This document shows positions 39,942-41,448 of a stretch of 64,000 nucleotides of DNA, piece by piece; the stretch's first letter is position 1, and every line of letters starts with the position of its first letter. The notes beneath the pieces were generated by a model. The model made no database searches. It worked only from the letters and a program-made list of their open reading frames with translations, and was not told where the DNA came from. The stretch is taken from NCBI GenBank assembly GCA_000961575.1, contig LADP01000018.1, positions 186,001 through 250,000 on the forward strand. The letters are read 5' to 3'. The DNA comes from Peptococcaceae bacterium BRH_c8a (GTDB lineage: Bacteria; Bacillota; Desulfotomaculia; Desulfotomaculales; Desulfallaceae). The position numbers and the translations under genes were made by a program.

Positions 39942-40132
39942 GGTTAATTAGCTCCACTTACTTGTTTTTGATATTTTTCGACTTTATTCGAAATTTTACC
40001 TTTAAAAACATAAAAATCTTAATCCTCCATATGTGAACATATATACTTTAGGCAGGATTACAAACACCGGTCCGGAAATAGTAAGTTTAGCATCTTAATA
40101 TTATTGTCGTACAATAATGGCCGGGGGTTTAT

Positions 40133-40585
40133 ATGGAAAGCACAAAAATATGCCTGGAGGTCGCTATAATAAGAAATAGTTTAGAGTCGGCTCTAAGTAT
40201 TGCAGCTACCCAGGGCCGGGCCGTATTTGGCACTATGGACGGCCGGATTTTGGAAAAAGTTATTTCTGCAGGTGCTAGCATCCCGGTCTATTTTTACGAA
40301 CCGGGCTGAGACTGTCCTCGCAAAGTGATTGCCGTGGGCCATCTGGGGGAAATATGGACGGATTTACCCGCCAAGGGCAAGGTAGAGTTCCAACGTGATT
40401 TTACCGACTTTTTTGGTGCCGCCTGGGAACTTGTAATGGTGGGGGCGGAAAAACCTTTTGCCATGCACTCGTACTGGGATGGTTACTTTGCCGTGCGGGA
40501 GATTAAACCGTTAATCGGCCTTACATTGGATGATTTAGCTTGGCCGGGGCAAAATGTAACCCGCTTCAATATTGTGGTAGGTTAG
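40133..40585 (+). CDS. Putative selenoprotein, in-frame TGA read as selenocysteine (150 aa)
   Basis: One reading frame runs from ATG 40133 (GGGGG upstream) to TAG 40583, broken only by TGA at 40307-40309. Reading it as Sec59 gives YFYEPG-U-DCPRKVIAVG, a U-x-C redox-type pair in the middle of a continuous fold (ESALSIAATQGRAVFGTM before, AAWELVMVGAEKPFAMHSYW after). A hairpin at 40327-40343 (GAT-T-GCC, loop GTG, GGC-C-ATC) has its loop about 25 bases after the TGA, in the window where bacterial SECIS elements lie. The YkgJ-family gene follows 32 bp later with AGGAGG. Alternatives: a nonsense mutation or two separate genes, but a GTG restart at 40325 has no ribosome site. Family not recognised. 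Confidence 0.72.
40327..40343 (+). promoter_or_regulatory. Candidate bacterial SECIS hairpin
   Basis: GAT and ATC, then GCC and GGC, pair across a single mismatch with a GTG tri-loop. The stem begins 17 bases after the in-frame TGA, and a loop G and T are present as in SelB-binding loops. The fold is small and was drawn by eye, so it is only suggestive. Confidence 0.4.
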
Positions 40586-40617
40586 TGGGTAATTTATATT
40601 TGGAGGAGGATCCACGT

Positions 40618-41448
40618 ATGGCTTTTGATTTTCAAAAAGGAGTGTTAGATAAGCTAGAAACAGACACCCTGGAAGCATTGGGTCTGGATCATGGTTTTGA
40701 GTTTTCTTGTAATGATGAGTGTATGGGGCGGTGCTGCCGTAAAATAACCATCCTGCTTGAGCCTTGGGACATTGAAGTGATGTCCAGACACCTGGACATG
40801 CCCGGGCAAAAGTTCTTCACCACTTTCTGCCGTATGGAACTGGATCCACAGGCAGGGTGGCCAGCGGTATGGCTGGCTCATGCCGCCGAAGGGCCCTGCA
40901 CTTTTATGCTGGAAGACGGTAAGTGCTCAATTTACCCGGCCCGTTCGGGTAACTGCCGCACTTTTCCCCTGGGGCGCGCCGTTCGCTATTTAAAAGAAGA
41001 CCATGGTGATAAAGTCCGGGATGAACGGATTTTTATGGTGGATCGGATGCAGTTTTGTCTGGGGGGCCGAAAAGGTAGGACTTGGACGGTCAAAGAATGG
41101 TTGGATGATGCTGATGTTTTTACCTGGTACCAAATGTCCGATCAGTACACCGAACTTGTGGATTACGCCATGCGGGAGCTTGCTGTGCGACAGTGGATGA
41201 ACGATAAAGTTTTGCGAATGATTATCCCCTTTTTATACGCCCCGGACATCCTGCGTAAACGGCTGGGTGCCGCTGCGGATGATATTACCCACGAAGAATT
41301 TCACCGGCGTCGTATGGAAGCAGTTAAACTAATACTCACCGACCTGGCTGCCGGATTCGGCTTTGGGCCCCGGGCAGACAAAGGAGTAGCCGGAAATTCC
41401 GGTAGTTTAATGGAGCGGGTGGGTAAGATACTGGCTCAGGGTAAGTAA
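40618..41448 (+). CDS. YkgJ-family cysteine-cluster protein, paired with the selenoprotein
   Basis: 276 residues from ATG 40618, which has GGAGGAGG upstream. The Cys pattern CNDECMGRCC (about 31-40), then GPCTF, CSIYPARSGNCRTF and a further Cys, is the YkgJ/UPF0153 signature, with probable metal or Fe-S binding. The LE-rich N-terminus and the helical C-terminus (about 185-276) extend beyond the minimal domain. It lies 32 bp after the in-frame-TGA gene and is very probably co-transcribed with it, so the two may act together. It is about 48 residues longer than the YkgJ protein at 18480. Confidence 0.85.
   Translation: MAFDFQKGVLDKLETDTLEALGLDHGFEFSCNDECMGRCCRKITILLEPWDIEVMSRHLDMPGQKFFTTFCRMELDPQAGWPAVWLAHAAEGPCTFMLEDGKCSIYPARSGNCRTFPLGRAVRYLKEDHGDKVRDERIFMVDRMQFCLGGRKGRTWTVKEWLDDADVFTWYQMSDQYTELVDYAMRELAVRQWMNDKVLRMIIPFLYAPDILRKRLGAAADDITHEEFHRRRMEAVKLILTDLAAGFGFGPRADKGVAGNSGSLMERVGKILAQGK

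Follow-up and report, generated by a model that had tools for sequence, protein, structure and literature searches.

Within the 64,000-nt stretch of DNA analysed here (the window), one continuous frame on the forward strand runs from the ATG at 40133 to the TAG at 40583–40585, and the single in-frame stop inside it is the TGA at 40307–40309. Read through this codon, the gene (40133–40585) would encode a putative selenoprotein of 150 aa with selenocysteine (Sec) as residue 59 and a predicted PUA-like fold, an assignment that draws on the frame, the homologues and a structure model. A run of G residues at 40123–40127 on the same strand, picked out by eye, may be its ribosome-binding site; no G run is seen by eye before GTG 40325, the first restart after the TGA in the list of open reading frames. 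The sequence-only reading had described exactly this arrangement, one frame broken by one TGA with a ribosome site upstream and none at the restart, and the start, the TGA, the final TAG and the G run all bear it out. A SECIS-like hairpin follows the TGA at 40327–40343 (forward strand), with six of seven pairs formed and one T-C mismatch; it was recognised through family-level tests. The next gene, 32 bp downstream of the selenoprotein gene, lies at 40618–41448 on the forward strand, encodes a CxxCxxCC protein by its Pfam match (PF03692) and is preceded in the sequence by ggaggagg at 40602–40609, also on the forward strand. Other neighbours, between 36183 and 45331, include by Pfam a tRNA-editing domain, VanW, a PRC-barrel, a chemotaxis-type protein, a carboxyl transferase and an enoyl-CoA hydratase, along with an unmatched protein of 356 aa.

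A protein search of 100 related genomes recovered 48 matches to the predicted protein in 46 genomes, representing 30 of 53 genera; 46 of these matches contain exactly one internal TGA and two contain none. A profile search of 113 genomes of the class returned the same 46 positive genomes, plus two further short partial matches in G073 and G024. In wider samples, eight of 398 genomes from the phylum were positive, all of them in the window's order; for the phylum to which a bin with the title Desulfobacteraceae belongs, the figure was four of 395, each full match there having one TGA; one of those four genomes additionally holds a stop-free partial match. Two partial copies were located relative to full ones: a family fragment with TGA (L122, G024:C252:4799-4942) lies about 3.2 kb from a full copy on the same contig, and a second partial match without a stop (L181, G499:C171:36483-36644, covering profile positions 97–150) lies about 21 kb from a full copy.

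When genome contigs were scanned with a DNA pattern permitting any TGN codon, 33 stretches were found, among them the fragment L122 and 31 family members, and every one of these 31 has TGA; the gene is cut by the locus edge in four of them (L099, L101, L108 and L119). Since the pattern matches the main motif only, diverged Cys forms could escape it. One stretch with TGC (L118) was a chance pattern match with a short frame and was rejected as a family member. The names attached to 14 of the 31 members include Desulfotomaculum, Desulforamulus, Desulfotruncus, Desulfoscipio, Desulfallas, Desulfovirgula, Desulfofundulus and Desulforudis. Four of the 31 are titled Nitrospirota, Nitrospira, Deltaproteobacteria or Desulfobacteraceae and may be transfers or misplaced contigs; the family is rare in bins titled Desulfobacteraceae, Deltaproteobacteria and Nitrospirota. 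An early contig scan confirmed no relative, probably because it used exact window peptides as patterns, one of which expected Cys at the TGA.

The comparison of the TGA position covers 55 copies, 48 from the class and seven from outside it (L097, L115, L121, L129, L177, L178 and L180). TGA stands at the matching place in 53 of them, the exceptions being Ile in L039 and Ala in L041, and neither Cys, Trp nor another stop occurs there in any of the 55. Most of the 53 TGA copies have the context FYExG-U-xxx-R-[KR]-VVAVG. The column is constant in all 30 rows of alignment A1 and in 41 of the 43 rows of alignment A2, and TGA is conserved there over many genera and, by the search tool's own grouping, in two phyla. 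The earlier expectation that homologues would carry TGA or Cys at this position is borne out through TGA only, no Cys form having been found. In 10 of 11 pairs of copies, dN is below dS in both halves of the frame, and in the eleventh (L009–L010) dS is saturated before the TGA; these comparisons indicate that purifying selection acts both before and after the codon.

A hairpin of the form GGTTGCC-GTG-GGCAACC, or a variant of it, spans +20 to +36 nt from the T of the TGA in 41 of the 46 class copies with TGA, forming seven pairs in 32 of them, six in eight and five in one; in the window, its GTG loop starts 24 nt past the TGA. In the alignment of these 41 sequences, pairing holds in 96.5% of the 287 cells, both sides have changed in 26 cells, and the covariation score is 0.356. 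None of 500 shuffles matches the hairpin in pairing, double-changed cells, pair types or covariation score; the number of pairs with both sides changed, four, was equalled by 65 of the 500. Slid to other positions, the hairpin reaches at most 57.8% pairing and a covariation score of at most 0.164. Codon choice points the same way: 277 of 287 cells pair against 184.7 ± 6.5 (maximum 203) in 500 synonymous-codon redraws, and the Ala codon inside the hairpin is GCC in 41 of 41 sequences, whereas in the rest of the genes GCC makes up 268 of 691 Ala codons. The other five class copies have a 6-bp stem with all six pairs, seen when a 22-nt piece was folded alone, 17 nt past the UGA and with the loop GGTC, GGTA, GGTT or CGTG. 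Among the seven copies outside the class, six have the 7-bp hairpin and L180 has a 6-bp form.

We also compared the copies with a published bSECIS model, as given in the 2026 review PMC13188914. The model fits 39 of 46 copies; in 20 sets with redrawn codons it fits 13–20 (mean 16.2). With the spacing fixed at 24 nt, the numbers are 34 for the real copies and 2–9 (mean 4.1) for the redrawn sets. The window's own hairpin, at −4.8 kcal/mol, misses the energy bound of the model because of its T-C mismatch and is one of the seven copies that fail. Folded alone, the window's TGA region is no better than shuffles (z +0.60 to +1.05). The two selD genes of the genome served as a yardstick, and their hairpins show no obvious likeness. 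At the level of the family, the covariation and the codon choice indicate that the hairpin is maintained, as expected of a bacterial SECIS.

The machinery for Sec insertion, proposed earlier as a check, is present in the window's genome: selA (612 bits), selB, two selD genes that each contain a TGA in frame, and a pair of tRNA-Sec genes confirmed by ARAGORN. The two tRNA-Sec genes (L001 and L002, on G000:C16 and G000:C36) score equally, and the two selD genes are L131 and L132 (G000:C46 and G000:C6); with an estimated contamination of 3.67 for this genome, one tRNA-Sec/selD set could be foreign. Matches to selB occur in all 100 relatives, above the cut-off in 96, so its presence does not discriminate here. 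Among the genomes of the four members titled Nitrospirota, Nitrospira, Deltaproteobacteria or Desulfobacteraceae, tRNA-Sec is clear in two (72.7 and 70.7 bits), barely at the cut-off in a third (47 bits) and below it in the fourth. One apparent tRNA-Sec in the window's genome, scored at 49 bits, turned out to be tRNA-Ser, which makes the 47-bit match unconvincing.

The conservation of the TGA at one column, the covarying hairpin behind it and the Sec machinery in the genome uphold the proposal of a selenoprotein, and on these sequence data UGA 40307–40309 is very probably decoded as selenocysteine. It is most improbable that the TGA is instead a true stop, dividing two short genes or ending a 58-residue truncated protein with some read-through: TGA is a normal bacterial stop and the window's own hairpin is weak, yet frame and length continue in 53 copies, in which TAA or TAG never stands at this place, the second half is under purifying selection, a covarying hairpin follows the codon and the restart has no visible ribosome site. 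A pseudogene or a sequencing error, from which a lone nonsense codon would look alike in one genome, can be considered practically negligible when the same TGA recurs in 46 genomes of 30 genera and in another phylum as well. Read-through of the UGA is needed in any case, and it could in principle insert Trp, Gly or Cys through a suppressor or an altered code; we regard this too as very unlikely, given that all 31 members recovered with a pattern open to any TGN codon have TGA, that the genome holds a complete Sec system and that the hairpins fit the bSECIS model far above the codon-redrawn controls.

The earlier suggestion that this is a new family rather than a known one is supported by the absence of any family match by sequence for the window's protein in Pfam and NCBIfam (both at E≤1) or the PDB sequences. 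When the 43 members were compared with Pfam and NCBIfam, weak matches were scattered over one or two members each; the best single-member match, MinC_C (E 0.0049, one of 43 members), was taken as chance. Searched against PDB sequences, the family profile hit MON1 twice, both times weakly (E 0.7 and 1). No motif or name fits among the 119 prokaryotic selenoprotein families and subfamilies in Table 1 of PMC13188914, where families with only cd or PTHR identifiers were compared by the motif or name listed. Titles and abstracts on selenoproteins in connection with a PUA-like fold or with Desulfotomaculum, with most subscription journals outside the coverage, mention no family of this kind. The selenoprotein family is therefore undescribed in the sources searched. 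It resembles known bacterial selenoproteins in its in-frame UGA, in a hairpin within 16–37 nt and in the presence of SelA, SelB, SelD and tRNA-Sec in the genome, and differs from them in having no Pfam or NCBIfam match and no Cys homologue found. As described in PMC12013277, deep-Sep discards candidates that have neither known Sec homologues nor homologues with Cys, and would therefore miss a family lacking Cys forms. As Pfam and NCBIfam have no model for the family, existing annotations probably show its genes in pieces or omit them.

An AlphaFold2 model built from alignment A2 (pLDDT 94.5, pTM 0.89) places Sec59 in a loop between predicted beta-strands 51–55 and 64–75. The leading Foldseek matches in the PDB are AF2351, ZmASCH and YTH domains, with a best E-value of 0.013 and none at 0.001, and a second structural comparison gives Z 7.6 for AF2351, 7.3 for ZmASCH and 5.8–7.1 for YTH domains; the structures 2dp9 and 2z0t, for which no family name is given, are also among the matches. 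The tool advises a level of Z 8, below which a score may reflect a common arrangement only, and as all values lie under 8, we consider a PUA-like beta-barrel likely for this model rather than proven. In the viral structure library, nothing matched at E≤0.001 (best 0.0035). A weak or absent fold match excludes no PUA-like family.

AF2351 of Archaeoglobus (2kku), which we take to belong to the PUA-like class, is the best fold match (rmsd 3.8 over 117 aligned residues), although identity is only 7% and there is no match by sequence. ZmASCH (5gus; ASCH, PF04266) aligns over 115 residues with rmsd 4.1, and hhalign places the Sec segment on the ASCH strand with probability 7.0; identity is nevertheless 11% and the Foldseek E-value 0.022. 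PF04266 is absent among the 15 Pfam families listed for the 43 members at E≤1, and for a second ASCH group the profile comparison yielded a probability of 0.3. For the EVE domain (PF01878), hhalign sets VYFYE-G-U..RKVVAVG on the EVE segment VLVYHTG..EKQAVGVA with probability 2.8, whereas the best E-value is 0.17, in one of 43 members and far under the Pfam cut-off. YTH domains, the m6A readers, make up most of the other fold matches listed, with identities of 6–13%. According to PMC5615036, the pocket of ZmASCH in a simulated complex is lined by Leu14, Trp15 and Tyr90, and Tyr47, Lys53 and Ser128 contribute to RNA binding and cleavage. A predicted PUA-like fold would set this protein apart from the majority of selenoproteins, for which PMC13188914 gives a thioredoxin-like fold.

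The sequence-only reading also took the U-x-C pair in the window for a typical redox or metal site, and this did not hold up: the residue two positions after Sec (U+2) is Cys in only eight of 43 A2 rows, and we accordingly rejected U-x-C, of the thiol-disulfide oxidoreductase type, as the active site. At position 14, where helix 1 begins, 18 of the 43 rows have Cys, and no row has Cys at both this place and U+2. Four of the 43 members have no Cys besides Sec, and none of the other Cys positions is invariant, which means that a single internal redox pair cannot serve the whole family. The two copies without Sec, L039 (G058, Ile) and L041 (G074, Ala), are paralogues; each of the two genomes has a TGA copy as well. 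In a tree of the 43 A2 rows, they form one group with the Sec copies L040 and L049–L052 (support 100/100), L039 standing beside L040 (97/95) and L041 beside L049 and L050 (96/76); these separate places suggest that Sec was probably lost twice, independently. Each retains four of six hairpin pairs that are present in all five Sec copies. Cys55 is present in all seven copies, and Cys14 is present in the five Sec copies and absent in both paralogues. Because both Sec-less paralogues have lost it, Cys14 appears to be the better candidate for a partner of Sec where it is present, without being obligatory, and we infer that Cys14 and Sec59 may face each other.

In the window's family, f1, the PF03692 gene adjoins the selenoprotein gene downstream in 11 of 12 loci, and it adjoins upstream in the two f13 loci; among the locus stretches examined, it was not found beside the selenoprotein gene outside f1 and f13. 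A PF03692 gene (E≤1e-20) occurs in all 12 f1 genomes with the selenoprotein and in none of the four without it. Over the class, 35 genomes have both genes, 11 the selenoprotein only, 12 the partner only and 55 neither (Fisher p 6e-10, kinship ignored). The CxxCxxCC gene is a linked partner in f1. A model of its product (pLDDT 76) gave no useful fold match. In L098, L109 and L110 (Desulforamulus/Desulfotomaculum), a gene about 0.7 kb downstream of the TGA is, we presume, similar to that for the sporulation factor SpoIIR.

We propose that Sec decoding at UGA 40307–40309, through SelB, Sec-tRNA and the hairpin starting 20 nt past the codon's U, would yield a single 150-residue selenoprotein. This protein would probably fold as a PUA-like beta-barrel related to ASCH, EVE and YTH, with Sec59 probably at the rim of the pocket in which PUA-like domains hold a base or a nucleotide. 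Its selenolate could then attack or reduce a ligand in this pocket, for which a nucleotide or a modified base is the likeliest identity, and might be restored by Cys14 in many members and by an external thiol where Sec is not accompanied by any Cys; for f1, the family of the window, the CxxCxxCC protein encoded by the neighbouring gene is a candidate partner. That the selenolate acts on a bound nucleotide or base is offered as a tentative and rather unlikely possibility. The main rival within the selenoprotein reading, itself doubtful though better placed, makes Sec59 a ligand for a metal or metalloid, exchanged for example with the CxxCxxCC protein, and not catalytic on a nucleotide. A metal site would suit the annotation of the linked partner as a putative chelator of zinc or iron, the absence of any further Cys in four members, and the statement in PMC13188914 that metals take part in about 70% of the ligand interactions predicted for selenoprotein families; against it, the folds most like this one belong to proteins described as binding nucleic acids, and the partner gene was not found beside the selenoprotein gene in the stretches examined outside f1 and f13.

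These findings extend the list of selenoproteins by a family with many members in one bacterial class. If the PUA-like fold is correct, the question arises of why a base-binding pocket would need selenium. As a still more speculative step beyond a selenolate acting on a bound base, the family might comprise selenium-dependent enzymes or sensors built on a nucleotide- or RNA-binding PUA-like pocket, assisted in part of the family by Cys14, that alter or read a base; candidates would be, for example, sulfur-, selenium- or oxidation-modified bases. Should this be true, Sec chemistry would operate in a fold for which none is listed, and would have been kept there without a Cys counterpart.
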